Source: a virus
IMG/VR virus record: IMGVR_UViG_3300026382_000002
Coordinates: 97,462 to 161,461 of that record
Reading direction: 5' to 3' (one strand)
Length of the DNA: 64,000 nucleotides
The translations under genes and the position numbers were made by a program. Under the pieces are notes generated by a model. That model did no database searches, was not told the DNA's origin, and was given only the letters and a program-made list of their open reading frames with translations. Below are positions 4,561 through 64,000 of the stretch, in pieces; position 1 is the first letter of the stretch, and every line of letters starts with the position of its first letter.

Positions 4561-4571
4561 CACATCCCCTA

Positions 4572-4886: not shown

Positions 4887-4948
4887 TGTGCATCCTATAA
4901 ATGTTTTTGTTTATTCTACCAAAAATATGGAAAAAGGTGAAGAAAAAA

Positions 4949-13373: not shown

Positions 13374-13480
13374 TTTTGCTCCTTTATTTTTTCTTTAAAT
13401 ATTATATAAAAAACAGCCATTATTGGTAGAATAACAGATAAATAAGCAATAATATTGGCCACGCTATCCATTGCTTTCAT
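13370..13480 (-). CDS. Single-pass membrane microprotein, 36 aa
   Basis: ATG 13480 (MKAMDSVANIIAYLS) has AAAAGG eight bases upstream. The central LSVILPIMAVFYIIF is a transmembrane helix with lysines after it. Its TGA overlaps the ATG of the pyrophosphohydrolase gene (ATGA). Confidence 0.5.
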   Translation of the reverse strand: MKAMDSVANIIAYLSVILPIMAVFYIIFKEKIKEQK

Positions 13481-13619
13481 TGAAAAACCTTTTCTCTCTG
13501 CGTTCAGTCTCATTGCAAATATTAAAACTCTCGACGAGCCTATTGCAACCCACAACTCTTGTATACACCATACATTTAACTCTTTTATTTTCGTTTTTAG
13601 TCAAAACTCTATTTTGCAT
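13464..13619 (-). CDS. Hypothetical basic protein, 51 aa
   Basis: ATG 13619 (MQNRVLTKNENK) has AGAAAGG six bases upstream. Short, basic, with three cysteines. It overlaps the microprotein gene by 17 bases. Could be a chance frame; the ribosome binding site is the main support. Confidence 0.35.
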   Translation of the reverse strand: MQNRVLTKNENKRVKCMVYTRVVGCNRLVESFNICNETERREKRFFNESNG

Positions 13620-13668
13620 AATAAGCCTTTCTTCTGTATTAATTTTACACAAACACCCCTCTCTCAGA

Positions 13669-13691
13669 GATAACTATTTTCTATAGTTATC
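13669..13691. promoter_or_regulatory. 9-bp inverted repeat, possible operator
   Basis: GATAACTAT, five-base loop TTTCT, ATAGTTATC: a perfect 9-bp inverted repeat. It sits in the 178-base non-coding stretch 13620-13797. The same stretch has promoter-like minus-strand sequence (TTGAAATTAAAGTGTATATTTAGATACAAT, split here by weak spacing). No T-run follows the repeat, so a protein-binding site fits better than a terminator. Confidence 0.4.
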
Positions 13692-13797
13692 CATATGATT
13701 GCACTTAATATTGTAGGGGAAATGTAAGGCTATTGTATCTAAATATACACTTTAATTTCAAGAGTGCAAAAACCATTAAAAGCATAAAAGAATAGAT

Positions 13798-14025
13798 TTA
13801 ATGTTTTTTATTTTTTTTAAGATATTTATCAAGCGCTTTCTCACTGCAAAATTCTTTTATAACAAGAGAGGAATCTCTCTCAGTTAAGAACCTGTATACA
13901 TCCTCTCTGTTTTTAAATATTTTAAAATTAATTCCACGATAATTGTAAACACACATCCCGTTGGTTAAGAATTCTATTGTTTCATCTGGTTTTACATAAT
14001 CTGTATCAAACACTTCTACTTTCAT
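13798..14025 (-). CDS. Hypothetical protein, 75 aa
   Basis: Starts MKVEVFDTDYVKPDE; its ATG overlaps the stop of the YopX-like gene. Beta-rich first half and lysine-rich helical end (DKYLKKNKKH). The pattern 'I.Y.G..F.V...R......L' is a common phage accessory style, but no named family. Confidence 0.5.
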   Translation of the reverse strand: MKVEVFDTDYVKPDETIEFLTNGMCVYNYRGINFKIFKNREDVYRFLTERDSSLVIKEFCSEKALDKYLKKNKKH

Positions 14026-14639
14026 TCCTTATCCTTTTTATTCGCTATTTCTCCCAATGTTTCATATGTTACGGTTGCTGCTTTTATCTTTTTGTTTCTG
14101 TTTTTCTTTTTTTCTTCAATAGTTTTTTTAATATATTCTTGAGCCGATTCAACCGCTTCTTCTAAAAAATTTATCGCTGCATCCATTCCATTTAATTTTA
14201 CAAGTTCGGGATTCTCATAAACATTCCCAACCAAATAACATTCAACATCACCATGCAACGGTTGAGAATCATACACCGTATTCTCTTTAAAATCCTGAAA
14301 ATTTTCGTAAACTTTAACCCTGTATGAGGCGCAACCTTCATCGTATTCAATTACGCCTCTTATCACTTCTTGCTCTTTAGAAGGCATTTTAGGTAAAACC
14401 AAATCTACAATATCAAACTCAAATAGCGGTTTACCATCCTTGGACAAAAAACCTATCTCTTGTCCAACAGTAAGAGGGTCCACCTCAAATCTTTTCTCAA
14501 GCCCTGGAAAATTATTCTCCTGCAGCCAAATTATATCTGTGTTAACAATAAACCAACCGTCTTCAGTTATTAAGAGAAATCCATAAACCCAACCTTGCTC
14601 TTTATTGTAGCCTCTATATTCTCTTATTTCACCTTTCAT
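14022..14639 (-). CDS. YopX-family protein, 205 aa
   Basis: Matches the YopX domain: REYRGYNKEQGWVYGFLL at the start, then a 'VDPLTVGQEIGFLSKDGKPLFEFDIVDL' type section (residues about 70-95), corresponding to 'vG.yTGlkDknGkeIyEGDIv'. YopX proteins are common in Firmicutes and Proteobacteria phages; function is not established. The C-terminal third is helical and lysine-rich. One of three YopX-like proteins here. Confidence 0.65.
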   Translation of the reverse strand: MKGEIREYRGYNKEQGWVYGFLLITEDGWFIVNTDIIWLQENNFPGLEKRFEVDPLTVGQEIGFLSKDGKPLFEFDIVDLVLPKMPSKEQEVIRGVIEYDEGCASYRVKVYENFQDFKENTVYDSQPLHGDVECYLVGNVYENPELVKLNGMDAAINFLEEAVESAQEYIKKTIEEKKKNRNKKIKAATVTYETLGEIANKKDKE

Positions 14640-14650
14640 TTTTCACTCCT

Positions 14651-15445
14651 TTAAAATTTAAGTCGTCTATATGCTTTGACAACCCATTCATCATTTAAGT
14701 GCGGATACGGCTCCCAACTGTACTCATTATCAATTAGATTTGGAGTAACATTCCTCTCCCCTGCATCATCATAAAAGAAACTGTTATCTACTGCATCGTA
14801 AAACCTGACAGTTCTTGAAAACGGAATATTGTTGTCACAGATAAATACAGGCTGTCCATCCCATAATTTATTTTTTTCATTATACGGGACATCTTCCCAT
14901 TTATATTTCTTTCTTGCATCGGAAAGAGTTACCTCATCGCCTATTTCATAGGATTCACCCAGGGTAAATGTTTTATTGTATTCTTTTTTTGCTTTTTCCT
15001 TATCAAATATAAATAATACCTTAAACGTATCTTCAGACAAGAATTCAACAATCATAAAATCATTTTTTTTAATTTCTCTTCCCTTTTCTTTTTTGACCCT
15101 AAAATTGCTAACATTCCATCCGTGTTTTGAAAGGTCTTCAAAAAAAGTTGTATTAGGGTCTGTAGGAACTGCAGAGAATACCATTTCAATAGGCTGCCAT
15201 TTATCTTCATTGTATACCTCTATTTTCTTTTTATCGGCAATGGCCTTTCTTAATTCTGCAAACTCATCATTAATTACATATTCGGCATCCGAACTCCACA
15301 ACGGGTCGCTTTGTAAATGCCATTTCGACATATAATAAGGATAATACCCATCTGGCATTTTACACCAAATCCTTGCTTCTTCAGACTGGTCTCTCCACCA
15401 TTCCATTGCTCTCCAGTGTCTTTTTAATGCTTTTCTTGAAATCAC
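14651..15445 (-). CDS. Phage accessory protein rich in Trp/Tyr, 264 aa
   Basis: GTG start at 15445 follows AAGGAGG. N-terminus is Trp-rich (HWRAMEWWRDQSEEA), then 'DPLWSSDAEYVINDEFAELRKAIADKKKIEVY', a pattern seen in many phage proteins with a repeated 'W...P.w....Y' layout (shown in parts: DPLWSSDAEYVI, EFAELRKAIADKK). Late 'LWDGQPVFICDNN' and 'FYDAVDNSFFYDDAGER' repeat the same theme. No enzymatic motif; function unknown. Confidence 0.55.
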   Translation of the reverse strand: MISRKALKRHWRAMEWWRDQSEEARIWCKMPDGYYPYYMSKWHLQSDPLWSSDAEYVINDEFAELRKAIADKKKIEVYNEDKWQPIEMVFSAVPTDPNTTFFEDLSKHGWNVSNFRVKKEKGREIKKNDFMIVEFLSEDTFKVLFIFDKEKAKKEYNKTFTLGESYEIGDEVTLSDARKKYKWEDVPYNEKNKLWDGQPVFICDNNIPFSRTVRFYDAVDNSFFYDDAGERNVTPNLIDNEYSWEPYPHLNDEWVVKAYRRLKF

Positions 15446-15789
15446 TTGTCCTCCTTGCTTATAACTTTATACATTGTTTTCACTTCTTTAATAAACCTTT
15501 CCTCATCAAAAAAGATATCCCCTTCATCCAAGTCAACATCAAAGCAATGTTTTATATTCAGTGTAAGGGTAGCTACTTTTTTGTTTTCTTTATATACATT
15601 GGCTTTAGTAATTAAATTGTCAAATAATACGCTGTGACCGTAATCCTGGCATCTTAGATAGCGGTTGTTAATTCTCATTCTTACCACATACTCTTCTCCG
15701 TTGTATTCAAACTTTAATTCAACACTTAATTTGTCTATAGGAAACCAGACATATTTTTCAGGCGTTCCTACCTGAATGCAATGTGGCAT
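15442..15789 (-). CDS. Hypothetical protein, 115 aa
   Basis: Begins MPHCIQVGTPEKYVWFPI. Largely beta-strand with alternating hydrophobics, ending in a helical basic tail. Overlaps neighbours by four bases on one side and about 32 on the other. No family recognised. Confidence 0.5.
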   Translation of the reverse strand: MPHCIQVGTPEKYVWFPIDKLSVELKFEYNGEEYVVRMRINNRYLRCQDYGHSVLFDNLITKANVYKENKKVATLTLNIKHCFDVDLDEGDIFFDEERFIKEVKTMYKVISKEDK

Positions 15790-15991
15790 ATTTCACCTCC
15801 TCGTTTATAATTAGATTTCTTTTATGTTTTTTACACATTTTTATCAACTGCTGCAAAGCAAAAGCTTTATCCCCTTCTACATTTCCGACTACAACCCTTG
15901 CAAAATATTCCGCTCCGCCTTCAGTTAAGATTTTATCCGGTATGCTTAGATTAACACCGTTTTTATTGCCGCTTATTTTAAATGGTTTCAT
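15758..15991 (-). CDS. Hypothetical protein, 77 aa
   Basis: ATG 15991 (MKPFKISGNKNGVN) has GAGGAG seven bases before it; longer frames lack a site. Beta-rich N-terminus, helical centre (KAFALQQLIKMCKKHKR). No motif recognised. Confidence 0.5.
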   Translation of the reverse strand: MKPFKISGNKNGVNLSIPDKILTEGGAEYFARVVVGNVEGDKAFALQQLIKMCKKHKRNLIINEEVKYATLHSGRNA

Positions 15992-16037
15992 TATCTCTCC
16001 TCTCAAATCTGTTATACCAATTCGCAAGTCTATCTAA

Positions 16038-16379
16038 TTAATTTTCTTCTTTTTTATCAATTTTCAGAGTACCTTCATCTTTAATCCACATGCTATCTTT
16101 CTCACATTTACATGGGACTAAAGTTGGCGTCGCTGTAAAAGTGCTATTAGATATTAAATATACACGATTATGGAAACATTTATAGGACATACCATAGTCT
16201 TCTGCTGTAGAGATTCTTCCAGAAGATGTGCTTTTAAAATAAAATACAGTTTTACTTCTGACATTACATTCAAAGTTAGTAACTTTTTCATATTTAAAAT
16301 ATTTTTTTTCTATTTTAAATAATTCTTTGCTCCATAAATTTAAAGATAAAAATATAAGAAAAAGAATTTTAGCTTTCAT
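16038..16379 (-). CDS. Secreted cysteine-containing protein, 113 aa
   Basis: Begins MKAKILFLIFLSLNLWSKE, a classical Sec signal peptide likely cut near residue 17. The mature part has four cysteines (FEC, YKC, PCKC) that could form two disulfides in the periplasm. No family recognised. Phage-encoded exported proteins often act on the envelope or on superinfection; here that is only a possibility. Confidence 0.55.
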   Translation of the reverse strand: MKAKILFLIFLSLNLWSKELFKIEKKYFKYEKVTNFECNVRSKTVFYFKSTSSGRISTAEDYGMSYKCFHNRVYLISNSTFTATPTLVPCKCEKDSMWIKDEGTLKIDKKEEN

Positions 16380-16435
16380 TTTTACTCCTTTAGTATTGTT
16401 TAATTCTTAATTTAACCTAGATGTTAGGTTCATTT

Positions 16436-16588
16436 TCATTTTTTATTATCCAAAAATCTTAATAAATCTTCCAACATAGCCTTAAGCAAGAGATGGTCTC
16501 TCTTGCATTCTTCCTTAGTGCACTTATCTTTTAATACTTCTTCAATGTGTTTAATAGCTTCTTTCACATCTTGGATAGAGTATTGCAT
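16436..16588 (-). CDS. Small helical protein, 50 aa
   Basis: Found by reading the gap 16380-16714. ATG 16588 follows GGAG and opens MQYSIQDVKEAIKHIEEV, a two-helix protein with a Cys pair (CTKEEC) at the turn, resembling a helical hairpin. Ends LRFLDNKK. Confidence 0.55.
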   Translation of the reverse strand: MQYSIQDVKEAIKHIEEVLKDKCTKEECKRDHLLLKAMLEDLLRFLDNKK

Positions 16589-16598
16589 CGCCACTCCT

Positions 16599-16718
16599 TT
16601 AATTAATATTTACAGAGCAGTTTTTAAAACAATACATCGCACCAATTCTTGTGTCATCTTTTACTATTCTTTTTTTGATTTTGATTTGAATTTTTTTTGT
16701 AGTTTTTTCTGTTTTCAT
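16599..16718 (-). CDS. Small basic protein, 39 aa
   Basis: Found in the same gap. ATG 16718 follows AAGGAG and overlaps the upstream stop (ATGA). Begins MKTEKTTKKIQIKIKKR; very basic first half, two cysteines near the end. Possibly nucleic-acid binding; length and charge are the only clues. Confidence 0.45.
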   Translation of the reverse strand: MKTEKTTKKIQIKIKKRIVKDDTRIGAMYCFKNCSVNIN

Positions 16719-17002
16719 TTTATTCTCCTTTCAAATTTGTTACAACCAAAATTTTTATTATTTAAAATATCTAATGTGCACTTGAATTTCGCACCTTGGA
16801 ATATCCTGCATTCTCCATCTTTATATTTAGAGCAGTTTTTACAAACTCTACTTTCTAAATCGTCATAGATTTTGTCTATAAAAGCATCCACAACACTACC
16901 CTTGTAAGGTAGTTTTAAAATTTTATCAAAACAATATTCAAACATTTCTTCAAAAACTCCGCCTTCTTTCCAAAATTCTTTTTTAGCTTCTTTTCTAGTC
17001 AT
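16715..17002 (-). CDS. Cysteine-cluster protein, 95 aa
   Basis: Helical N-terminal half, then VCKNCSKYKDGECRIF and two later cysteines (KCTLD, FGCNKFE): a C-x2-C...C...C...C set that likely binds zinc or a metal cluster. Similar short 'C..C....gC' proteins are common in phages; function unknown. Confidence 0.5.
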   Translation of the reverse strand: MTRKEAKKEFWKEGGVFEEMFEYCFDKILKLPYKGSVVDAFIDKIYDDLESRVCKNCSKYKDGECRIFQGAKFKCTLDILNNKNFGCNKFERRIK

Positions 17003-17324
17003 TTTTCTCCCTTTGTTTTTTTAAACATTGTATATCTACTATAAATCCACCGAGCAACTCTTCCTTGTGCTTTAACAGTGTTTCACATTCCTCTTCTGTT
17101 AAATCATGCACATCTACCCCGTCAGCAGAACCTATAGCATTATAGGCCATCCCTTCTCTTCCTGTGTATTTTCTAACAAACTCTTCAACATCATCAAAAA
17201 GCCCTTCTATACCTGCCCACATTTCATTAATTTTCTCTTCTTCATCGAAGTCTTCATCATCTCTGTATATTTCAATATATTCATACTCTAGGCCTTCTTT
17301 ATCAAACTTTACTTCAAATATCAT
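16995..17324 (-). CDS. Acidic hypothetical protein, 109 aa
   Basis: Begins MIFEVKFDKEGLEYEY. Strongly acidic (DDEDFDEEE) with a helical C-terminus. Overlaps the cysteine-cluster gene by eight bases. No family recognised; small acidic phage proteins are sometimes DNA mimics or inhibitors, which is not shown here. Confidence 0.5.
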   Translation of the reverse strand: MIFEVKFDKEGLEYEYIEIYRDDEDFDEEEKINEMWAGIEGLFDDVEEFVRKYTGREGMAYNAIGSADGVDVHDLTEEECETLLKHKEELLGGFIVDIQCLKKQREKND

Positions 17325-17325
17325 T

Positions 17326-17550
17326 TTACACCTCCTCTATTGTTTCTTCTAAAAATTTTAAAATTTCCTTTTTTGTTGCAAAAACTTTTTTTTCTGGAAC
17401 TTGTCCAACATCTTTAACCCAATAAGTTATCTGTATTCTTCCATCCCAATTTATATCAGCAACTATGTTAAGAACTTTGGTCTTACGAATTTTGTCCCTA
17501 TAAATCACATAACATTCTGCATTTATATCCAATTTTGTCTCTATTTTCAT
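17326..17550 (-). CDS. Hypothetical protein, 74 aa
   Basis: ATG 17550 (MKIETKLDINAECYV) follows AAGGAG. Beta-rich with a short helical C-terminus. The layout (barrel-like strands with 'vyrdkirktkVlnI..di') is SH3-like, but too weak to name a family. Confidence 0.5.
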   Translation of the reverse strand: MKIETKLDINAECYVIYRDKIRKTKVLNIVADINWDGRIQITYWVKDVGQVPEKKVFATKKEILKFLEETIEEV

Positions 17551-17551
17551 T

Positions 17552-17854
17552 TCATTCTCCTTCCAAATCAAATTTTCCTGAATTTAGGATGTCGCAAATA
17601 GGGACTTCAAATTTAATTTCGTCCCAGAACAATGTTTGATTGCCTTTTGAATAGAAAGCCACACCGTTTAAATCATAATAACCATAACCGCTATAAGTAT
17701 CGTTAAATTCGACTTCCATTAAATCAAAATCTTTTTCAGGAGTAACATTCCAGTTATCTACATCAGAGGCTTTTAATAACTCTATAACAGTACCCCACCC
17801 AAATTCAAAATCCCAAACTCTGTCTCCCGTTTTTATTCCATCAAAATAAGCCAT
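17552..17854 (-). CDS. Hypothetical protein, 100 aa
   Basis: Begins MAYFDGIKTGDRVWDFEFGWGTVIELL. The 'GDRVWDFEFGWGTV' start is an SH3/Tudor-like barrel opening found in phage and bacterial proteins that have 'kvGDrVwd...G.GtV'. The rest is beta-rich and aromatic. First gene after the promoter near 17881? No: that promoter lies upstream at 17881 and reads into this gene. Confidence 0.55.
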   Translation of the reverse strand: MAYFDGIKTGDRVWDFEFGWGTVIELLKASDVDNWNVTPEKDFDLMEVEFNDTYSGYGYYDLNGVAFYSKGNQTLFWDEIKFEVPICDILNSGKFDLEGE

Positions 17855-42777: not shown

Positions 42778-43152
42778 GTTTTCTCCTTTAAACAGTAGTA
42801 AATAGTATTAATAGTGTTTACAACATCCGTATTTTCAACTATTTTTAATTTTCCATCTTCAACTCCATATACAGACTTCATAAAACATTCGATTAAATCG
42901 CTTTCGAAATCTGCATACATTCTTTTGAAACGTTTTTACTGTCAACCTGAACTTTATTTATTTTGACCTCATAATCACCACTATCTTCACAAGGGAGACC
43001 AAATTGGACTTCCCATAATGTTCCATTAACGTCCACTCCTGCGTTAAATACCCGCCAAACTCGACCTCCACTAAAATATCGTTGAAACACTCAGTTCCCA
43101 GCGATATTTTTTCGTTTTGAAATTTATAAACTTCGTATTCTTTAAGCAGCAT
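42765..43152 (-). pseudogene. Gene broken by two frameshifts (about 130 aa if restored)
   Basis: Three consecutive minus-strand frames each look coding only in part. From ATG 43152: MLLKEYEVYKFQNEKISLGT up to ...FGG. The next frame continues 'VFNAGVDVNGTLWEVQFGLP' to '...VDSKNVSK'. A third frame from ATG 42920 continues MYADFESDLIECFMKSVYGV to TTT..KTWQC, stop at 42765. Joined they give one smooth protein. Slip points lie near GGCGGG (about 43053) and CAAAAGAA (about 42925). Either a decayed gene, sequencing errors, or three overlapping small genes. Confidence 0.45.
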
Positions 43153-43445
43153 TACTCCTCCAATTCGTTAATTTTTTCTTCCAATTCTTCAATTGTTTTA
43201 TTCAGTTCATCTATCTCGTATTCCAAATCATCAATTTGTGTTTCAGCAGCAGTTCTCATATCTTCATTAGTTTGTCTTACCTCTTCTATATACGGGAGTA
43301 TTCTTTCCATAAGTTTGTTTGAATACTCCTCAATTTTATTTTCATCAACCTCTAACTCGTTTTCTAGGAAATCTTCAATTTCGCTTTCTATGTTGTTGAT
43401 GTTTTTGTCGATTATTGGGCAAGTATGATTAAAATTAAAACTCAT
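43152..43445 (-). CDS. Coiled-coil protein, 97 aa
   Basis: Begins MSFNFNHTCPIIDKNINNIE. The second half is one long acidic coiled coil with heptad isoleucine/leucine (DDLEYEIDELNKTIEELEEK). Likely an oligomerising protein. Its stop overlaps the start of the broken gene. Confidence 0.55.
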   Translation of the reverse strand: MSFNFNHTCPIIDKNINNIESEIEDFLENELEVDENKIEEYSNKLMERILPYIEEVRQTNEDMRTAAETQIDDLEYEIDELNKTIEELEEKINELEE

Positions 43446-43644
43446 CGTCTATCCTTTCAACAGTAAAAGTAATTGCCTCTTTAACATTCATCATATTAAA
43501 CAATGCAATATCTTCAACATTACGACAATGTCTGCTTCTTACAAGCCCTTGACCTACTACTTTGTCGTTTTCATCATAGTATGTTATCACGTACAAATCC
43601 CCAAAAAATACACGCTTTAACCATCTTTTAAAAGACGTCCACAT
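43435..43644 (-). CDS. Hypothetical protein, 69 aa
   Basis: ATG 43644 (MWTSFKRWLKRVFFGDLYVI) follows AAAGGTGG. Amphipathic basic N-terminus that could sit on a membrane surface, then strands with 'VGQGLVRSRHCRNVED'. Overlaps the neighbouring microprotein by one base. Confidence 0.5.
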   Translation of the reverse strand: MWTSFKRWLKRVFFGDLYVITYYDENDKVVGQGLVRSRHCRNVEDIALFNMMNVKEAITFTVERIDDEF

Positions 43645-43730
43645 TAAAACCACCTTTCATCTTTTTTAGCTTCTTTATATATAGTCACAAGCATAACAAT
43701 TACTATAGGCAATAAAAACAACATATCCAT
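43644..43730 (-). CDS. Single-pass membrane microprotein, 28 aa
   Basis: Found by reading the gap. ATG 43730 stands five bases after a perfect AAGGAG. MDMLFLLPIVIVMLVTIYKE plus AKKDERWF is a transmembrane helix with a positively charged tail. Its stop overlaps the next ATG. Confidence 0.5.
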   Translation of the reverse strand: MDMLFLLPIVIVMLVTIYKEAKKDERWF

Positions 43731-43739
43731 TATAGCTCC

Positions 43740-43937
43740 TTAAAGTGGGTTTATTACAACTCCAGGCTCAATCACCGCATACTCAACCCCTAAATCTCTT
43801 CCAAGCAGGTTGTAGTCGATATAATAAGTTAGAGTTTCTGGAATATTCCCATACAAACCTTCTTCCACCTTAAATCTTGCAAATTTTTCAAGCGTTTCTT
43901 TCTCGTCAGCGCAACCTGGGAAAACATAAATTTCCAA
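43740..43937 (-). CDS. Hypothetical protein, 65 aa
   Basis: Begins MEIYVFPGCADEKETLEKFA. Helix-strand mix; no motif recognised. Ribosome binding site is weak, so the start is uncertain. Confidence 0.45.
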   Translation of the reverse strand: MEIYVFPGCADEKETLEKFARFKVEEGLYGNIPETLTYYIDYNLLGRDLGVEYAVIEPGVVINPL

Positions 43938-43942
43938 ATCAT

Positions 43943-44071
43943 TTAGATATTCAATACACCAAACTCTTTAAGTTCTTCAATTTGCTTTTTTACATCCTCC
44001 CACTTGCCTTTAAATTCTAAACATTCTGTATTTAGGTCGCTATCCTCGTTTAAATATACTTGTAATTCCAT
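43943..44071 (-). CDS. Small acidic protein, 42 aa
   Basis: Found in the gap 43938-44072. ATG 44071 follows AAAGGG and directly follows the upstream TAA. MELQVYLNEDSDLNTECLEF then a helix (VKKQIEELKEFG). Frame integrity and coupling support it. Confidence 0.45.
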   Translation of the reverse strand: MELQVYLNEDSDLNTECLEFKGKWEDVKKQIEELKEFGVLNI

Positions 44072-44072
44072 T

Positions 44073-44381
44073 TTAGCCCTTTACCCAAGTTTCTAATATT
44101 TGGTCAACAGAGTCATCAAAATACAAAGTGTCGTCCGCTTCAACTTTAATACACTCTATCAAATCCGCTTTAAAATCGTATTCATGCTTTATTTCAACAT
44201 CTTTGTCATTTTTACTTATCAACACTTCAGTATCATCAGGGTCAATTATATACGTATTACATCCATCTGATGGACAGTTTATCTGTCCTGTGTAGATTGT
44301 GAAAGTAAGTTTTATACCATCTTTCTCATACATAATTTCTTCATCAGTAATTCTATAAACTTTTAACTCTAACTCAACCAT
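44073..44381 (-). CDS. Acidic hypothetical protein, 102 aa
   Basis: Begins MVELELKVYRITDEEIMYEK; mostly beta strands, strongly acidic (DDTEVLISKNDKDVE, ADDTLYFDDSVD). No family recognised. Confidence 0.5.
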   Translation of the reverse strand: MVELELKVYRITDEEIMYEKDGIKLTFTIYTGQINCPSDGCNTYIIDPDDTEVLISKNDKDVEIKHEYDFKADLIECIKVEADDTLYFDDSVDQILETWVKG

Positions 44382-44397
44382 ACGTCCTCCTTTTAGA

Positions 44398-44991
44398 TTA
44401 ATATATATATCTGAAATAAGCCGATTCGACTATTTTCCAAATAAGCTTATCAATGTCGAATACTTTTTTGTTTGAAACAGCTTTTTTTTTGCAATGCAAT
44501 GCACCGTTCTCAATAATATATAACCCGATATGTTTCTTATTCCTAGATTGCTGTATCTTCTCAAGAGCTTTATCTTCAAGAACAGAGGGGACAACAAAAT
44601 ACAGTACATTGCACTTGTTTAAGTAATTTTCGTATTTAACGTCCTGCTTTAAATCAGTAACAGATGTTTTGACTTCAAATCCGATAACACGACGATTTTT
44701 TGAAAATCTTTCTATAGCAAGGACATCGAATCTTTGATTCTGAATTGATACTTCGTCACAAAGATAGGTTTTGTCCCTGAACTCTTTAAATATAGCTCTT
44801 TTTATCGTGTAGGAATCATATTTCTCTGATGGTGGAATCAGTTTGTTAACCACCCTTAGAACTCTTTTTAATGACTTTGAGATTCTGTCTACACAACCGC
44901 ATTTTTCATCTGAAGGCAAAAATGCTAGCTCATCTTTCAATGCGGTTCTAAGAGTATATAATTCCTCAACCCTCTTCATCGCAGCATCCAT
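44398..44991 (-). CDS. MmcB-like PD-(D/E)xK nuclease-fold protein, 197 aa
   Basis: The segment QRFDVLAIERFSKNRRVIGF then EVKTSVTDLKQDVKYENYL and VLYFVVPS matches the MmcB family core: D (RFDVLAI), then E-x-K (FEVKTS), then 'D...D.Ky..Yl..cn.lyfvvp'. MmcB proteins are restriction-endonuclease-fold proteins linked to DNA repair. The N-terminal third is helical. Start uncertain: TTG 45009, ATG 44991 or ATG 44979, all inside the upstream gene. Confidence 0.6.
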   Translation of the reverse strand: MDAAMKRVEELYTLRTALKDELAFLPSDEKCGCVDRISKSLKRVLRVVNKLIPPSEKYDSYTIKRAIFKEFRDKTYLCDEVSIQNQRFDVLAIERFSKNRRVIGFEVKTSVTDLKQDVKYENYLNKCNVLYFVVPSVLEDKALEKIQQSRNKKHIGLYIIENGALHCKKKAVSNKKVFDIDKLIWKIVESAYFRYIY

Positions 44992-52085: not shown

Positions 52086-52529
52086 ATGAGCGTCGTAAAT
52101 GAAGTTAGATTAACTGGTAGATTAACTAGAGATGCTGAGATTAAATATATTAGCTCAGGAACACCCATAGTAACATTTAGTCTAGCGGTTACAAGGAACG
52201 TAAAAGATGGCAACGAATATAAAGAAGTCGTTGATTATTTTGAAACGTCTATGTTTGGAAAAAGAGGCGAGTCTTTAGTTAAACACCTTAAGAAAGGCGT
52301 TAAAGTCTCAATCCTTGGAGAACTGAGACAAGACTCTTGGGTTGACAAATCTGGAAACAAGAAATATAAGACGTCTATTATAACAACTGACATCGATATA
52401 AATTTCCCTCCAAGACAACACAATTCTTCCAACAACAATCAAAACAATCAACACAATTATCAACATTCCAATACTCCAAACACCCAAAATAACTACAACC
52501 AAGAATACGAAGACAAAATTCCTTTTTAG
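52086..52529 (+). CDS. ssb: Single-stranded DNA-binding protein (SSB), 147 aa
   Basis: MSVVNEVRLTGRLTRDAEIK, then 'FSLAVTRN' and 'V.YFETSMFGKRGESLVKHLKKG..VSILGELR.DSWVDKSGNKKY' (parts cited) form the SSB OB fold. The tail ends in YEDKIPF, the acidic tip that recruits partner proteins. Between them is a Gln/Asn-rich linker. It coats ssDNA during replication and annealing. Its TAG overlaps the TAA of recT on the other strand. Confidence 0.9.
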   Translation: MSVVNEVRLTGRLTRDAEIKYISSGTPIVTFSLAVTRNVKDGNEYKEVVDYFETSMFGKRGESLVKHLKKGVKVSILGELRQDSWVDKSGNKKYKTSIITTDIDINFPPRQHNSSNNNQNNQHNYQHSNTPNTQNNYNQEYEDKIPF

Positions 52530-53278
52530 TTTTCTTCGTCTATATCAATAATTTTCTCATCTTGATGTTCGTTTGTTTCCACATTTTTAATGTTTTGGAC
52601 TGCGTTATCATCAATAACTTCATCTTTTGTTTTATTTTTTGCTAACAACGCTCCTGCATCTTCTGTTTGGTTTTCATCAATATTAACAGATTCTGTGACA
52701 ATTTCATCATCAACTCCTTCTTCATAAAAATCAACACCTCCTCTGATATTGAATGCTTTACGAAGAGCCTGGCTCTCTGCTACCTTAATTATCATTGTTA
52801 TAGGCATCTTCTGCCAAAAAGACGTGATTTCTCCGTTAGATTTTCTTTGCACATACTCAGAATATGGAGATTCTACCCTAATCGGGTGTTCCATATCTTT
52901 ATGATATACGATGGCTATGCCAACCAATTCTTTTCTTAACTCCCAGCCATCTGCTGTTTTATGAGGAACTTCTTTTAATTCTGCCCAACTCTCCATTCCG
53001 TTAAATTTGCCGCTCCTGTGGGCAATCGTTAGATATGAATTTCTACCGAGCATAGGTTCTATTTTTGAAACCCAATGCCCATTAATTTTTTGTTTTCTCT
53101 CTATAAAATATATTTCTTTCATTATTGGGTTTAACCCCAACTGTTTTGCCACATTCATACAATACATCATATCCACATCTGTGGCTTGAGGTGGAAAAAA
53201 CTGTTTTCTTATGATTTTCTTTTCTTCTGGTGTATATTCTTCCATATATTTTTCTATTGTTTTTATTTTTTTATTCAT
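52526..53278 (-). CDS. recT: RecT/Bet-family annealase, 250 aa
   Basis: Residues 1-200 follow the Bet/RecT family: 'LGLNPIMKEIYFIERK' (la...gLnP...Eiyf), 'IEPMLGRNSYLTIAHRSGKF' (beta part), 'DMEHPIRVESPYSEYVQR', 'FWQKMPITMIIKVAESQALR' and KAFNIRGG. The C-terminus is an acidic low-complexity tail. It anneals complementary ssDNA with SSB and the RecE-type exonuclease at 55649. Confidence 0.8.
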   Translation of the reverse strand: MNKKIKTIEKYMEEYTPEEKKIIRKQFFPPQATDVDMMYCMNVAKQLGLNPIMKEIYFIERKQKINGHWVSKIEPMLGRNSYLTIAHRSGKFNGMESWAELKEVPHKTADGWELRKELVGIAIVYHKDMEHPIRVESPYSEYVQRKSNGEITSFWQKMPITMIIKVAESQALRKAFNIRGGVDFYEEGVDDEIVTESVNIDENQTEDAGALLAKNKTKDEVIDDNAVQNIKNVETNEHQDEKIIDIDEEN

Positions 53279-55648: not shown

Positions 55649-56410
55649 TTACTCATCTAAGCTTTTTAAATACTCCCAGTCATACACCATATGTATATCA
55701 AGAATTTTTCCTTGTTCGCAATATTCTTGATATTTCTGCAACACTTCCCCATATTTGCTTCTACCTTTTTCTATTACGCTTTCATGCACTTCAACCGCAA
55801 AACAATTATATGGATTCATGTTCTGCACACATAAGAAAACAAAATGGTCAGCTTTGTACCCTAAACTTTTCAACACATCAAGGTACCAAGCTGCCTGAAC
55901 GTCGTAGTTTCTGCCTATAATATCATTCCTATAGAAACTCTTCTTATCTCCGTATCTGGTAGTTTTAACATCAAAAACAATACCGAGGTCAGGGTTGTAT
56001 GCATCACACCTGCATTTCTTCAAAAATACATCGTCTTTAGCAAGAAACCCTACCTCAGTTTCAGCCCCATATAATGCATCACCAAAAATAACTTTAGCAT
56101 TGTTAATCATTTTTTTTAATGCATTTGCATCTTTAGGTTTAAATCTATAAGCACTAAATCTAAATTTTTCAGGCTCAAGTATTGCTTCGTGTAATGCTGT
56201 GCCCATATTCATTGCATCGCTCTCATCTTTTTGTAGATAGCCTCTTTTTACTACCCTATCAATAGATTCCATCATTTCTTTGATATCGGATGCTGATAGG
56301 GCATCTATTTTTCTATAATCATCGTTGCTCATATCAGGTAACTTACCAAGTTGGTATTTTTTTATAACACTATCTTTTATGTAACCCCAGCATTTATTTT
56401 TTTTAGACAT
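55649..56410 (-). CDS. recE: RecE-type PD-(D/E)xK exonuclease, 253 aa
   Basis: ATG 56410 follows AAGGAG. MNMGTALHEAILEPEKF, then GAETEVGFLAKDDVFLKKCR, then CDAYNPDLGIVFDVKTTRYG carry the catalytic set of the RecE/exonuclease VIII domain (E in the first and the D...D-x-K motif, D140 to K151 roughly). It is followed by 'YDVQAAWYLDVL' (the Q-A helix). Degrades the 5' strand to give ssDNA for RecT. It lies 2.4 kb from recT on the same strand. Confidence 0.75.
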   Translation of the reverse strand: MSKKNKCWGYIKDSVIKKYQLGKLPDMSNDDYRKIDALSASDIKEMMESIDRVVKRGYLQKDESDAMNMGTALHEAILEPEKFRFSAYRFKPKDANALKKMINNAKVIFGDALYGAETEVGFLAKDDVFLKKCRCDAYNPDLGIVFDVKTTRYGDKKSFYRNDIIGRNYDVQAAWYLDVLKSLGYKADHFVFLCVQNMNPYNCFAVEVHESVIEKGRSKYGEVLQKYQEYCEQGKILDIHMVYDWEYLKSLDE

Positions 56411-57246
56411 CAAATCTCCTTAATAATTGTTTTAATGGGTTTTATTTTTTCTGCTTTTAAAAGATTAATTATAGCTTCAACAACTTCATTCTCACTTTTT
56501 CCTGGCTTGCCAACAACTTCAAAAGTAAGAGTCGCTATATATGTGGATTTATTTTTTTTAGTGTTCACGACATTTTCTTTAATTTGTTCAGCAATTTCTT
56601 CTGTTACCTCTTTAACCTCTTCGGTTATTTCTTTTGTTTTATATTCTTCTATAGCCTCTCGCTTGATTCTTTCAACTTCCGCTTTTTTTCTTGCCTCTTC
56701 TTCTTGTATTTCTTTTATTTTAATTAAAATATCTTTAATATCGCTTTCTATTTCTGTTGCCGTACCCTTAGACACATTTCCGGATTGCGTTACAGCAGAC
56801 AGTTTAACATATTTGTTCACATCTAAGAGTCTAAATTCTTCAGGTATATTATGCAATTCATAAAGAGTGTCAACATATTCTTCAATAATTTTCTTAATTT
56901 CATTTTTACGTTGTTCTTCATATTTTGAAACTTGGGTAACCAAAGTCTCTCTTGCATTTTTAACTAATTCAACCAACTCCTTCATTTTTGATTCAAACTC
57001 TTTAAGAGGCAGTTCATACTCTTTCTTAATCTCTTTTCTCTTATCATCAATTGCTTTCGCAAATTTATTAAGAGATGCTGCATCTTTTTTAGCTTCTTTA
57101 ACTCCATCTTCGCTAACAAGAATTTTGAATTTTTCGAGCTTATTTGCTAGCTCATTTTTTATTTCTTCAAACCCAACAATTTCTATTTTTCCTGGTTTAA
57201 AAACGACATTAAAATCACTTTGTATTGCCGGTATTTTTTTTTTCAT
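56410..57246 (-). CDS. DUF1351 phage protein, 278 aa
   Basis: Overlaps the exonuclease start by ATGA. Residues 30-130 hold the DUF1351 pattern (KFAKAIDDKRKEIKKEYELP, then LKEFESKMKELVELVKNARE), long basic coiled coils. C-terminus 'YIATLTFEVVGKPGKSENEV' is a small beta part. DUF1351 proteins accompany RecE/RecT systems in phages; their role is not established. Confidence 0.7.
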   Translation of the reverse strand: MKKKIPAIQSDFNVVFKPGKIEIVGFEEIKNELANKLEKFKILVSEDGVKEAKKDAASLNKFAKAIDDKRKEIKKEYELPLKEFESKMKELVELVKNARETLVTQVSKYEEQRKNEIKKIIEEYVDTLYELHNIPEEFRLLDVNKYVKLSAVTQSGNVSKGTATEIESDIKDILIKIKEIQEEEARKKAEVERIKREAIEEYKTKEITEEVKEVTEEIAEQIKENVVNTKKNKSTYIATLTFEVVGKPGKSENEVVEAIINLLKAEKIKPIKTIIKEI

Positions 57247-57264: not shown

Positions 57265-57927
57265 TTAATTTATTTTTTTAACATTTGTTATTATCTTAAG
57301 TTTTTCTTTCGTTTTATCACTCACATAGTAATCCTCCTTTATTTGTGGTTTAATTAGCTTGTAATCGCTTTTTACTTCTATAACCTTGTCACCTACGCCT
57401 ATTAGTTTTTCTTTCAATACAGAGCCTGTTAGAAGTAAATTAACGTATGTTTGCACAAACTTATCTTCGGCCCTGTTTCTTCTCTTAATATCTTCGTTAG
57501 TTGTTGAATATCCTGTTTTTCTTGCAAACTCTCTCCAACCGCCCATTTTGTTTATTGTTTCAATTATTAATTTATCCTCAAAAACAGGGTTTGCCTTTTC
57601 ACCATAGATAATTGACACATCTAACGCCAAGTTCCACGCATCCTGTGCTATCAGTTTTGCTTCTCTCTCGTCAACTTCATATTCTTTAAAATCTAGAAAC
57701 GAACTTACACGAGGAAACTCTTTTCTTGAATCAAAAGTTTTGCCGCTATGCTCTATTAACTTATCCGCTGCTTTAACGAATTGTTTTATATCGTCGAATT
57801 TTGTAGAAAGGTATTTATAATAAATTTCCATTTCTTCTTCGCTTAGCATAGGCACTCTAAGCAACACAGATACTGCAGTCATTGTTTTTATAAACATAGG
57901 ATAGTCTTTATTTTTGTCCCAATTCAT
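57265..57927 (-). CDS. Loader-like replication protein, 220 aa
   Basis: ATG 57927 (MNWDKNKDYPMFIKTMTAVS) follows GGGAG. The first 90 residues show the pattern of phage helicase-loader partners of the DUF6475 type ('F......l...y....ls......Y...L..f......A......s......FP'). The rest is helical and basic. It stands directly after the replication initiator, which supports this role. Confidence 0.5.
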   Translation of the reverse strand: MNWDKNKDYPMFIKTMTAVSVLLRVPMLSEEEMEIYYKYLSTKFDDIKQFVKAADKLIEHSGKTFDSRKEFPRVSSFLDFKEYEVDEREAKLIAQDAWNLALDVSIIYGEKANPVFEDKLIIETINKMGGWREFARKTGYSTTNEDIKRRNRAEDKFVQTYVNLLLTGSVLKEKLIGVGDKVIEVKSDYKLIKPQIKEDYYVSDKTKEKLKIITNVKKIN

Positions 57928-57928
57928 T

Positions 57929-58843
57929 TTAGCTCCCATTTTGATTTTTTTGTTGCCATCTTCTCAACATTTCCTCTCCTTGCTGTATCGCATTTTTTGG
58001 AGAGTTAGAACTTTTAAAACACGAATAATCAGGTCTGATAGATTGCCATTCTCTCTCCATCATCATATCTAAAATTTTTTGTACAGGCAATCTATGTGCT
58101 GTGAAGCATTCTAAAATATCTTTCAATACTCTTAATGGTCCATTAACTGTTTTGAATGGTTTTTTGATTCTTCTTCTGTATAAAATGATGCTTTTTACGA
58201 ATTCGTCGTCTATGTTGAGTTTTGATTTTAATAAATTATATTTTTCATTATTTAGCAAATCTTCAAATATTTTTAAATCAGACTTGCTTTTAGTCCATTG
58301 TGTGTTAGCAAAATTTTTTTGCTCACTCTCTTTATAAGTATATTTGTTAGAATAATTATCTTCTTTATTATAAGATACTATACTCTTATTATTCTTTTCT
58401 TTATTACTTTTATTTATTACTTTTATAGTATTACTTAGGTGGTTACCGTTTTGGTAATTACCGTCATGGTCATTACCGTCATGGTAATTACCGTAACGGC
58501 TACTTCCGTAGCTAGCATTTCTTTCGTAGTTTGTAGGGTCTGTAAATCTTTCTAAATCTTCTTCTGTCGGATGCAATATCCAATTCCATCCTTTGAACTC
58601 ACCTTCTTTATTTTTTTTAGGAACTCTTATCAACAATCCATGTTCCACAAGCTCTTTTATTCCGCTTCTTATTGACTTTTCCCCTTCTTTCAGTTGATGT
58701 GTTAACCCGTCGTATGAGAAGTTCCATTCGCTGGGTTTTGAGCACAAGAAAGCATACAGGCCTTTAGCTTTCAGGGACATATTTTTGTCATTTAAAACTT
58801 TATTCATAACCACTGTATAATTATCTTGCAATCTGTTTATCAT
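57929..58843 (-). CDS. Replication initiator (lambda O-like organisation), 304 aa
   Basis: ATG 58843 (MINRLQDNYTVVMNKVLN) follows AAAGGAG. The N-terminal 90 residues form a winged helix (MSLKAKGLYAFLCSKPSEWN then FSYDGLTHQLKEGEKSIRS) typical of phage replisome organisers. In the middle comes a repetitive stretch (YGNYHDGNDHDGNYQNGNH) coded by five 15-bp iterons. The C-terminal part is helical and would bind the loader/helicase. Binding iterons in its own gene is how lambda O works. Confidence 0.7.
   Translation of the reverse strand: MINRLQDNYTVVMNKVLNDKNMSLKAKGLYAFLCSKPSEWNFSYDGLTHQLKEGEKSIRSGIKELVEHGLLIRVPKKNKEGEFKGWNWILHPTEEDLERFTDPTNYERNASYGSSRYGNYHDGNDHDGNYQNGNHLSNTIKVINKSNKEKNNKSIVSYNKEDNYSNKYTYKESEQKNFANTQWTKSKSDLKIFEDLLNNEKYNLLKSKLNIDDEFVKSIILYRRRIKKPFKTVNGPLRVLKDILECFTAHRLPVQKILDMMMEREWQSIRPDYSCFKSSNSPKNAIQQGEEMLRRWQQKNQNGS
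58325..58437. other. AT-rich stretch beside the iterons, candidate unwinding element
   Basis: 113 bases almost without G or C (for example TTATTATTCTTTTCTTTATT), directly next to the iterons inside the initiator gene. In lambda-type origins the DNA-unwinding element has exactly this position. Confidence 0.5.
58438..58512. repeat. Five tandem 15-bp iterons, candidate replication origin
   Basis: GGTGGTTACCGTTTT, GGTAATTACCGTCAT, GGTCATTACCGTCAT, GGTAATTACCGTAAC, GGCTACTTCCGTAGC, each exactly 15 bases (58438, 58453, 58468, 58483, 58498). Units 2 and 4 contain the perfect palindrome GGTAATTACC. They lie inside the initiator gene beside the AT-rich stretch, as in the lambda origin. Confidence 0.65.
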
Positions 58844-58904
58844 GCGTTCTCCTTTAGTGAAATTAAAGATTGTTCGAGACATACCGAAATTATATAACAT
58901 AATT

Positions 58905-58936
58905 ACTTAATTTTTTCCGCATAATTGTGTATAATT
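58905..58936 (+). promoter_or_regulatory. Promoter for the plus-strand four-gene operon
   Basis: TTAATTTTTTCCGCATAATTGTGTATAAT gives TATAAT at 58930-58935, with T-rich DNA upstream, then AAAAAGGA seven bases before the TTG start at 58955. The divergent initiator gene lies on the other side (58844-58904), so the gap serves both. Confidence 0.5.
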
Positions 58937-58954
58937 TTAAAAAAGGATGCTGTT

Positions 58955-60850
58955 TTGTTTAAAATTGATACTTTCTTGTCATCGTTTTGGGAGTTTTTTG
59001 AAATAAACAAGCACAAGATACTACCAATATTAAAAAATAACGGAGTAAATATAAATTTAAACAACAATATCTACAGAATCGGCAATACTGTAAGCTCTGA
59101 TTTAATAGAATTAATACATCTCATATATCAAAAAGGAAACATAATCGAATCACTTAAATCTTTTTTTACAGAAATAGGTGAAAATATATTTTTCGATTAT
59201 TCGGCAATAAAAGAGTACAATGATATTGTAGGCATGAATGGTTATTTGAACATGTTTGTTCTTGGCGCTGTTCAGTTTAATAGCGATAAAAATACATACA
59301 AAATTGTGAATTTTTCTGAATTAAAATCAGATTTCGGTGATATTATCGATAAATTTAATTTTATGTTTCCTGAACATTCTGTTTTTAATGGAGATGAAGC
59401 ATTTTTACATATAAACTCTTTTGGGATTATTACTGCTGCAACTGTTAAAACTAATATAGGGTATGTTACATATAAAGCTCCTTACTGTGATAAGGTTTGT
59501 GTGTTTAATGAGAACAAAAACAGAGAATTGTTGTTATCTGGCGATAGTATTAATATTTGCTTCAATAATATTAAAGAAGAAAATCTTGTCATTTTTACAG
59601 GTATTGATAACGAAGAATACAACATTAGATATTCTTTTAAGAAAGTTATATTAAACACAAAAAAACCTTCAGAAATAAATTTCGTATATGGTACCGATTT
59701 AGTAAAGTATAATCAAAATATTTATATATCAGACCGACATATTGAAGATTATATATGTAAATATATTAAAACACACAAAGGGTGGAGTGAAAAATTATCG
59801 GAAATAGATAATGTAATTTCAAACGTATCAAATGAAATTTTTTCAAACGTAATTAAATATACATCAAAAAACATATCTGAGAGCGCTTCTGAGCGATTAA
59901 AACAGATTAGGGTATCCAAGACAGCAAACATATTGAATCTTCTTGATATAGAGCTTAAAGCAACAAAATACAATAGTTTTTTTACATCAAACGATGTAGT
60001 TTGTAAAATAAACGGAATTTATGAAACAATAACAATAAGTGAAAGCGGTAGAAGCTCCTTTATAAACAAACCAGAGTTACTTGAATCTGTTAGAAAGATA
60101 AAACACATTTATAAAAAATTCAAACATATCGATGAAAAAGATATTCTTTCTATGGTTTTCAATGAAATTAAAATACAGTCATTGTCCTTAAACAAAATCA
60201 CTGATTTGGTTTGTGATGGACTATGGGAAGTTAATGGAGATATTTCTCTCGTGTCGAAAAATAAACATTCAAATTTAGATATTTTATTAGAAAACGGGAT
60301 ATATCCATATCCAAAACACGTGACCATAGGAGGAAAAGATTATAAAACGCTTGTCACCATACTTGATAAAATACCTGACAATTTAACTGATTATTATATT
60401 ACTTTTTTAAAAATGATTTTCAAGGGTAAAATGCGATACGAATTGAGTATAAAAACAAAATACGATGCAAACAAGTTTATTAAGCACTTCACTAATTCAA
60501 GTAACTTTATTAAACATATAAGTATTTCAAAAATGAAAACTATATTAAAGAACGTTAATAATTCTAAACTCGTTCTTATGGGAATTTTAAACGAAACTCC
60601 TGATGAGTTTATAGAAATGAACTATGACGAATATTTGGGAACTAAAAAAGAGTATGGAGTTGAATATCAAATTAAAAATTACTCATCATTATTTTTGATA
60701 AATATAGACGAAGATAATGGTATTGACTTTGAAAACATTCCAGATGGCAATGAGCTTATTGACTCTTTAATTAAATATATAGTAAACTGCGATAAACCAA
60801 AATCAAGATTTAAAGTAGTTATCGATAAACTTGAGGAGAAAATTTTTTAA
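58955..60850 (+). CDS. Large unknown protein, 631 aa, first gene of plus-strand operon
   Basis: Start TTG 58955 follows AAAAAGGA. MFKIDTFLSSFWEFFEINKH opens a long Asn/Lys/Ile-rich protein without membrane segments, Walker motifs or recognised catalytic residues. The C-terminal half is helical. It lies ahead of an LSm-like and a nuclease gene, so a nucleic-acid role is likely but unproven. Probably the key partner of the nuclease in the operon. Confidence 0.6.
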   Translation: MFKIDTFLSSFWEFFEINKHKILPILKNNGVNINLNNNIYRIGNTVSSDLIELIHLIYQKGNIIESLKSFFTEIGENIFFDYSAIKEYNDIVGMNGYLNMFVLGAVQFNSDKNTYKIVNFSELKSDFGDIIDKFNFMFPEHSVFNGDEAFLHINSFGIITAATVKTNIGYVTYKAPYCDKVCVFNENKNRELLLSGDSINICFNNIKEENLVIFTGIDNEEYNIRYSFKKVILNTKKPSEINFVYGTDLVKYNQNIYISDRHIEDYICKYIKTHKGWSEKLSEIDNVISNVSNEIFSNVIKYTSKNISESASERLKQIRVSKTANILNLLDIELKATKYNSFFTSNDVVCKINGIYETITISESGRSSFINKPELLESVRKIKHIYKKFKHIDEKDILSMVFNEIKIQSLSLNKITDLVCDGLWEVNGDISLVSKNKHSNLDILLENGIYPYPKHVTIGGKDYKTLVTILDKIPDNLTDYYITFLKMIFKGKMRYELSIKTKYDANKFIKHFTNSSNFIKHISISKMKTILKNVNNSKLVLMGILNETPDEFIEMNYDEYLGTKKEYGVEYQIKNYSSLFLINIDEDNGIDFENIPDGNELIDSLIKYIVNCDKPKSRFKVVIDKLEEKIF

Positions 60851-63055: not shown

Positions 63056-63712
63056 TTAAGATTTTGTAAGCATAGCGTAAGCAGTTCTGTCAGCAGGCCT
63101 GAATACTATGGAGATATCGAATATCTTATAAGGCACACCGCTAATAGCGTATACCCTTCTACCATCGTCAAGTACTTTATTCATTTCAAATTTAAGATGA
63201 TGACATCTATTATCATATGAACCTGTAGTTTTATGTCCACATATTGAGCATAATTCATACGGTGTACGAAGCCCCATTGATACCGCTATTGGCTTACCTG
63301 TTTCAATATAGTTAGGAATATATCTTGCATTTTCTTTTGGGATTTCCATTACAAGTTCAACACGGTGCATTATGTCGTTATAAAAAGCTCTAGTTACTTT
63401 ACCGGAACTTTTACTCATGTCTTTGTTGTCATGATTCCAGAATATTCCTGCGTTTTCAAAATCTTTGTAGTATTTTTTAAGGTCTGCTTCTCTGAAGTAA
63501 TCACCGTTTTTATTTGCTCCGTAAAATTCGGATGCTGTCATACCTATTACTAGCATATATATTTTATTAGGGTCTGGGGCCAGGTTTTTGAAATATTCCA
63601 CACTTTCTGGAACTATTCCGGCTGTTTTAACTAGAAAATCACAACTTCCATCACAATGTCTTGCTTTAGGGTCTATTCTGTATGCCGTTGCGTCAAAGTG
63701 TTTTGTTAGCAT
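63056..63712 (-). CDS. Prohead protease (S78/U35-like), 218 aa
   Basis: Catalytic His in FWNHDNKDMSKSSGKVTRAF (H94), catalytic Ser in PIAVSMGLRT (S145). FDISIVFRPADRTAYAMLT is the typical 'eiSlV..PAn..A' end. A zinc-type cluster C155, C158, C170 and H171/H172 (CSICGH...RCHH) is unusual. Near the N-terminus is FLVKTAGIVPES: L-x-K-x-A at residues 27-31, the motif also present in the proposed substrates, which suggests self-cleavage. Ribosome binding site AAGGA. Role: cuts scaffold and internal proteins during head maturation. Confidence 0.75.
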   Translation of the reverse strand: MLTKHFDATAYRIDPKARHCDGSCDFLVKTAGIVPESVEYFKNLAPDPNKIYMLVIGMTASEFYGANKNGDYFREADLKKYYKDFENAGIFWNHDNKDMSKSSGKVTRAFYNDIMHRVELVMEIPKENARYIPNYIETGKPIAVSMGLRTPYELCSICGHKTTGSYDNRCHHLKFEMNKVLDDGRRVYAISGVPYKIFDISIVFRPADRTAYAMLTKS

Positions 63713-63713
63713 T

Positions 63714-64000
63714 CTAAATCCTTTTTGTTGGTTTGTTATAGTATGTAATATGTGTTTTTGGATATATTATTTTGTTTATCTTCCTGTGTTTTATTATTAA
63801 TTTATATCTATTATCCCTAAAAATATAATTCTTTAAATCATTTGTCTCTTCACTTTTAATCTCATCAAATTTTTTAATAAGCATTCCCTTGCTTATGAAA
63901 TTTATTTTTACTCCTATAGTTTTAGATATGTAAAAGTTTAGATTGAAAATATTGATTTGATTTATCTTTTTACCTATATTATGTATAATGTTTGATGCGA
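63714..64000 (-). CDS. C-terminal part of an upstream virion-region gene
   Basis: An open minus-strand frame runs from the right edge to TAG at 63714, ending 'YYNKPTKRI' with AAAAGGATTTAG as ribosome binding site for the protease. 95 codons seen; basic, Ile/Asn/Lys-rich. In many phages the portal gene precedes the protease, but nothing here confirms that. Confidence 0.5.
   Translation of the reverse strand, partial: ASNIIHNIGKKINQINIFNLNFYISKTIGVKINFISKGMLIKKFDEIKSEETNDLKNYIFRDNRYKLIIKHRKINKIIYPKTHITYYNKPTKRI

Follow-up and report, generated by a model that had tools for sequence, protein, structure and literature searches.

A candidate replication origin inside the initiator gene of an uncultured 161-kb tailed phage

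The DNA analyzed here (the window) is a stretch of 64,000 nucleotides that forms the final 64 kb (97462-161461) of the 161,461-bp virus record IMGVR_UViG_3300026382_000002, whose source is an uncultured tailed phage of 161 kb. The first 100 bases of the record are repeated exactly as its last 100 (window 63901-64000 equals record 1-100). Because of this exact terminal overlap the genome, of approximately 161,361 bp, appears to be complete and circular or circularly permuted, although the record states no completeness. An open reading frame of 1453 amino acids on the + strand (record 13459-17820; L002:13459-17820) joins RNA polymerase beta domains (Rpb2_3, Rpb2_6) to beta' domains (Rpb1_1, Rpb1_2), and a separate - strand gene approximately 25 kb away (record 43148-44905; L004:3148-4905) encodes Rpb1_5, the C-terminal domain of beta'. 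With these beta/beta'-like genes the phage is predicted to carry its own multisubunit RNA polymerase. The nearest full-length relative of this polymerase in the phage collection is that of Salmonella phage Arash, at 29% identity; Arash and Vibrio phage D181 are distant cousins of the phage by terminase (28%) and RNA polymerase (29%), and in both of them PolA and Toprim_2 are present and an HTH_36 initiator is absent. The record also holds a cluster of six tRNA genes (two Lys, Tyr, Gln and two Ser; L006:11405-12094).

The features of the locus are collected in Table 1. The initiator gene is listed with 323 codons; the real start is likely to be M20 at 58843, which has AAAGGAG upstream. The winged helix that the preliminary description had placed in this gene was recovered at its N terminus as Pfam HTH_36 (E 5e-9), and the protein matches the PHROGs families phrog_428, 4707, 270 and 4221, 'replication initiation protein'. 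HTH_36 was the only domain that Pfam found in the initiator, RepA_N being absent. No solved structure matched the protein by sequence, and its structural model (pLDDT 56), too weak overall, yielded nothing significant in Foldseek (best E 0.31); the linker that follows the winged helix is predicted to be disordered (pLDDT ~30, residues 102-182 of the model). Divergent from the initiator gene lies a gene of 641 amino acids on the + strand (window 58925-60850), to which no function was assigned; an open reading frame of similar size (3100-5034, - strand) has the same position in the related record L011, introduced below.

Table 1. Coordinates of the features at the candidate origin and in the adjoining gene cluster (window positions)
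Feature	Position	Strand	Description
RecT-like single-strand annealing protein	52526..53278	-	Pfam RecT E 1.4e-34; same leftward cluster
RecE-like exonuclease (DUF3799)	55649..56413	-	Pfam E 5e-18; phrog_412 exonuclease VIII E 1.3e-34; same cluster
Next gene, proposed helicase loader	57265..57939	-	224 aa; overlaps initiator gene
Initiator gene	57929..58900	-	HTH_36 N-terminus, central origin-coding linker, C-terminal domain as in NrS-3
AT-rich tract, proposed DNA unwinding element	58325..58437		AAGTAATACTATAAAAGTAATAAATAAAAGTAATAAAG on coding strand
Iteron 5	58438..58449	-	Coding strand ACGGTAACCACC; degenerate; adjoins AT-rich tract
Iteron 4	58453..58464	-	ACGGTAATTACC; perfect palindrome GGTAATTACC
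Iteron 3	58468..58479	-	ACGGTAATGACC; palindrome, one mismatch
Iteron 2	58483..58494	-	ACGGTAATTACC; perfect palindrome
Iteron 1	58498..58509	-	ACGGAAGTAGCC; outer unit, degenerate

The iteron array (window 58438-58512) occupies codons 112-137 of the initiator gene, approximately 330 bp into the gene and 3' of the winged-helix codons. On the + strand its five 15-bp units start at 58438 (GGTGGTTACCGT), 58453 and 58483 (both GGTAATTACCGT), 58468 (GGTCATTACCGT) and 58498 (GGCTACTTCCGT); on the coding strand they run from iteron 1 to iteron 5 of Table 1, with a 3-bp spacer after each. A period of exactly 15 bp keeps the units in the reading frame of the - strand gene, where they encode the peptide YGSSRYGNYHDGNDHDGNYQNGNH. 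Thus the preliminary description was right that five in-frame 15-bp units produce a repeated peptide, but it had called all five palindromic, and the perfect 10-bp palindrome GGTAATTACC is present in two of the five only; of the others, the middle unit departs from it at one base and both outer units are degenerate. Over the outermost iteron (window 58498-58513, + strand), antisense to the initiator gene, there is a stem-loop followed by a T-rich tail, which is terminator-like by consensus only.

None of 200 codon shuffles reached the array (period 15). We also used a synonymous-codon null of 20,000 draws, in which the peptide was held fixed and codon usage was the phage's own. Against this null the repeat matches in the window gave p=0.00015, and 19 of 25 dyad pairs were formed where 12.3±1.7 were expected (p 0.00025). 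The palindromes and repeats are therefore not accounted for by synonymous codon choice given the peptides (p ~1e-4). A weight-matrix scan of the whole 161 kb returned this array as its single cluster; no second iteron cluster was found in the genome, the sites elsewhere being isolated ones. When 2.9 million viral contigs were scanned for two GGTNATNACC units spaced 15 bp apart, 39 loci were returned; on visual inspection of their reading frames they seemed to be accidental matches within unrelated genes. None of the 39 was recognized as an initiator gene, and the iteron sequence therefore appears to be lineage-specific.

The AT-rich tract of 113 bases that had been reported beside the iterons is real and is the stability minimum of the genome. 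Calculations with nearest-neighbour energies place both the least stable 60-bp window and the least stable 100-bp window of the 161,461-bp record inside it, even though the tract codes for protein. A+T reaches 85% in the 100 bases adjoining the array, compared with 69% for the whole gene. These properties make it a candidate strand-opening element at which the DNA would unwind. The words AAGTAATA and AATACTA recur in the AT-rich tract of the window and in the equivalent tracts of L011, L014, L064, L069 and others despite differing iterons, AAGTAATA being present in 5 of 14 tracts where 0.6 would be expected (uncorrected for multiple testing). It is possibly a strand-opening motif with a role comparable to that of the DnaA-trios.

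A single-protein scan of the viral contigs with the initiator found no relative, and genome contigs scanned with the initiator alignment gave no match; two related records, L011 (IMGVR_UViG_3300028030_000010) and L014, were reached via the downstream gene and via alignment. L011 shares the local gene order. Its copy of the next gene is 56% identical, and by open reading frame position and a reading of the sequences it also has the divergent gene (641 amino acids in the window, 644 in L011), the VRR-NUC-like gene and a counterpart of the gene at 63056-63712. The L011 initiator gene also contains five units at this position, but their perfect palindrome is another one, GGTCATGACC, and the encoded peptide differs as well. 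In codon-aligned comparisons of the two genes, the winged helix showed 53% amino-acid and 42% third-position identity and the C-domain 42% and 47%, respectively, while the iterons showed the reverse pattern, with 42% amino-acid and 88% third-position identity. The AT-rich tract is likewise conserved in L011 (74% third-position, 49% amino-acid identity); outside these two elements third-position identity lies at 42-47%. In the iterons the window and L011 share 65 of 81 bases and 24 of 27 third positions; the peptides and codon usage would lead one to expect 49±2.7 and 11.2±2.3, respectively, and none of 20,000 draws reached either observed value. Under the synonymous-codon null the L011 array itself had 19 of 25 dyad pairs (12.5±1.7 expected, p 0.00055) and repeat matches at p 0.00015. 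In the iterons it is the DNA rather than the peptide that is conserved, and selection has acted at the DNA level. As evidence against an origin, the preliminary description had named repeats conserved only as protein, with palindromes broken by synonymous drift; L011 displays the opposite, a diverged peptide with the palindromic DNA and the third codon positions retained.

The two halves of the initiator have different relatives. In L014 the N-domain (63% identity) and the beginning of the AT-rich tract, TAAGTAATACTA, are retained; its iterons are degenerate, with a dyad test that was not significant under the synonymous-codon null, and the C-half of its initiator is unrelated, as is that of 80α, which also shares the N-domain. 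The Nitratiruptor phages NrS-2 and NrS-3 have the same C-terminal domain (34% identity to NrS-3, E 2e-17) and the same next gene (26% identity to the gene after the NrS-3 initiator, E 2e-14). They differ in an unrelated N-terminal domain, DUF6291, in their repeats, which are AAAACC runs and 12-bp AT-rich units, and in being temperate with genomes of approximately 40 kb. These matches show that the N-domain and the C-domain of the initiator were inherited separately. The pattern fits a DNA-binding half that would be tied to the iterons and a C-terminal half that would be tied to a partner protein.

Among 21 other phage initiators, 12 had a significant array just after the winged-helix codons, with a period of 14-16 or 30 bp (0 of 200 codon shuffles). 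They are those of L011, Bacteroides phages BF695P3 and C1_85S2P, Vibrio phage 209E38-1, Staphylococcus phages 80α and vB_SepS_456, Lactobacillus phages Lj965 and Lb, Pseudoalteromonas phage PHS3, Planktothrix phage PaV-LD, Enterococcus phage fHoEfm07 and Terrisporobacter phage TPELB_ph1. Two more, NrS-3 and LL-H, had low-complexity arrays, and no such array was found in L014, three Helicobacter prophage homologues, Arthrobacter phage MellowYellow, Streptococcus phage Javan28 or L015. Since the codon shuffle ignores repeated peptides, the arrays in other phages are leads only; the peptide-controlled test covers the window, L011 and L014. In BF695P3 (L008:2307-2381) CCGCATCCGGAAAAC is repeated at 15 bp, and the retrieved regions of this phage, fHoEfm07 (L064), TPELB_ph1 (L069), PHS3 (L062) and PaV-LD (L063) contain in-gene arrays and AT-rich tracts with no origin annotation. 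In Nitratiruptor phage NrS-4 the gene before the loader homologue (L084:1165-1995) has central palindromes of the CCCCTCCC..AAGGGGG type; this may be a further in-gene origin, one whose initiator is unrelated.

The known system that most resembles the locus is that of Staphylococcus phage 80α. Its ORF20 (gp20) is homologous to the present initiator (E 6e-11; 33% identity over the N-terminal winged helix, E 5e-16) and likewise has repeats and an AT-rich tract within the initiator gene, right after the winged-helix codons; in its record a putative origin is annotated at the corresponding position of that gene. An ORF20 mutant of 80α could not be complemented in trans, suggesting an embedded origin (PMC5499656). 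The same study describes SPP1 G38P as a homologue of 80α ORF20, and lambda O as unrelated to the 80α and SPP1 initiators; the SPP1 homology is taken from that report rather than from a sequence comparison here. SPP1 has two origins, separated by approximately 13 kb, and one of them, oriL, is located in gene 38; gp38 binds the oriL direct repeats beside an AT-rich unwinding element, and SPP1 theta replication has been reconstituted (PMC6316719). Where phages of the 80α/SPP1 type have a helicase loader (or helicase) gene after the initiator gene, this locus has a proposed loader, a syntenic and conserved gene in which no known loader domain was found. The locus differs from 80α in its iteron sequence, in genome size (161 kb compared with approximately 44 kb), in a C-terminal initiator half without the Phg_2220_C domain and in a next gene that is not DnaC-like, and from SPP1 in that SPP1 encodes its own helicase, gp40, and none was found in this genome. 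On these comparisons the locus has the tested sequence features of an 80α/SPP1-type HTH_36 in-gene origin.

The preliminary description had proposed a lambda-type origin, and this can be retained for the architecture but not as family membership. Like ori-lambda, the locus has iterons made of inverted repeats midway along the initiator gene, beside an AT-rich tract (lambda annotation; PMC7466680), and a second replication gene follows the initiator gene in lambda as well (PMC7466680). However, lambda has four 18-bp iterons spaced 20-24 bp, compared with five 15-bp units here, the initiator showed no significant similarity to lambda O (BLASTP E 0.02 over 75 residues) and the next gene had no significant alignment to lambda P. 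The RepA_N plasmid replicons offer a further likeness, since in pSK41 a winged-helix N-domain binds Rep boxes located centrally in the rep gene, and the RepA_N N-domain and origin are exchangeable as a block, as in pPR9 (PMC5703833). They differ from this locus, which has no RepA_N Pfam match and belongs to a phage with a different second gene.

The cumulative GC skew had been suggested as a check. Over the whole circular genome it carried no information, owing to a strongly negative net skew, and we used the local sign change instead. In 500-bp bins the skew, until then consistently negative, becomes mostly positive within the interval 155.5-156.5 kb of the record (window 58.0-59.0 kb), where the array lies (155.9 kb). 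Since gene orientation switches at the same place, this result is only weakly supportive. In - strand genes the third-position skew is -0.22 just left of the array and +0.18 at 0-6.3 kb, an opposition that gene orientation alone does not explain; in the + strand genes right of the array it is near zero. Over record 26-155 kb the third-position skew of - strand genes fades steadily the farther the genes lie from the candidate origin (-0.22, -0.20, -0.07, -0.04), which could reflect replication or early/late gene composition.

The next gene is DUF6475-like below the cut-off and its AlphaFold model is unreliable (pLDDT 39). It has no DnaC/IstB domain, nor were IstB/DnaC matches found anywhere in the genome, and in the phage collection its homologues occur in four Nitratiruptor phages only. 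We infer that its product, as the likely partner of the C-terminal half of the initiator, may be a helicase loader. No match to PolA, PolB, PolIII-alpha, DnaB or Toprim_2 was found genome-wide, although divergent polymerases may hide among the many unassigned genes. Because matches to a polymerase, DnaB and Toprim_2 are absent, host replication proteins are probably needed, and the phage probably recruits the host replisome to copy its genome.

Taken together, the L011 comparison, the palindrome statistics and the 80α annotation strongly support the earlier suggestion of an origin inside the initiator gene, and we consider it very probable that the array and the AT-rich tract are the replication origin of the phage, located within the gene for the initiator that would act on it. 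Weighing against this are the degenerate iterons of L014 and their non-significant dyad test, the homologous initiators in which no array was found, the GC skew that coincides with a switch of gene orientation, and a next gene that matched no known loader family. Each of the five palindromic 15-bp iterons would be occupied by an initiator dimer through the N-terminal winged helix, and the resulting nucleoprotein complex would put strain on the neighbouring AT-rich tract and so force it open. The product of the next gene, the proposed loader, would then be recruited by the C-terminal domain of the initiator and would deliver the DnaB helicase of the host together with its replisome.

The strongest competing explanation is that the array is a minor or early origin, with most copies made by RecE/RecT recombination-dependent replication or from a second, unrecognized origin. 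The RecE- and RecT-like genes in the same cluster fit such a scheme, as do the presence of two origins in SPP1 (PMC6316719) and the long way that forks from a single origin would have to travel over 161 kb. We regard it as unlikely, since no second iteron cluster was found and recombination-dependent replication usually needs a first origin-dependent round; it is also largely compatible with an embedded origin. Autoregulation is common among initiators, and a site within the gene could block transcription, so the array might instead be an operator by which the initiator represses or times its own transcription, the origin lying elsewhere. This is improbable given that the least stable tract of the genome adjoins the array and is conserved with it, that homologous genes carry a putative origin at this place, that the scan found no second cluster, and that the array starts approximately 330 bp into the gene, away from the promoter. 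That the repeats are a feature of the protein only, a flexible Gly/Asn/Asp linker arisen by slippage in DNA that has no role, agrees with in-frame units encoding a repeated peptide and with the predicted disorder of the linker, but is very improbable indeed, because the DNA and its third positions are far better conserved than the peptide, L011 restores the palindrome using other bases and the synonymous codon choice is non-random.

These results give an uncultured phage of 161 kb a testable origin mapped to the base pair, and the peptide-controlled statistics show a protein-coding stretch that is selected for its DNA. Origins of this kind are known from the smaller phages 80α, SPP1 and lambda and are less expected in a 161-kb phage with an RNA polymerase and no recognizable DNA polymerase. 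As a tentative picture, which we hold slightly more likely to need revision than to stand as a whole, the phage may represent a lineage of approximately 160 kb that has its own multisubunit RNA polymerase and no DNA polymerase (the cousins Arash and D181 encode one of the polymerase-A type) and that is copied by the host replisome from a single in-gene origin; its initiator would consist of two exchangeable halves, a DNA-binding half that goes with the iterons and a C-terminal half that goes with a previously undescribed family of non-ATPase loaders. The comparison has also yielded unannotated candidate origins in several cultured phages, and the two-half pattern makes the co-evolution of initiator and origin testable by domain swaps. 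If a DNA polymerase is truly absent, this would be a case of a large phage producing its transcripts itself yet borrowing the whole replisome of its host.
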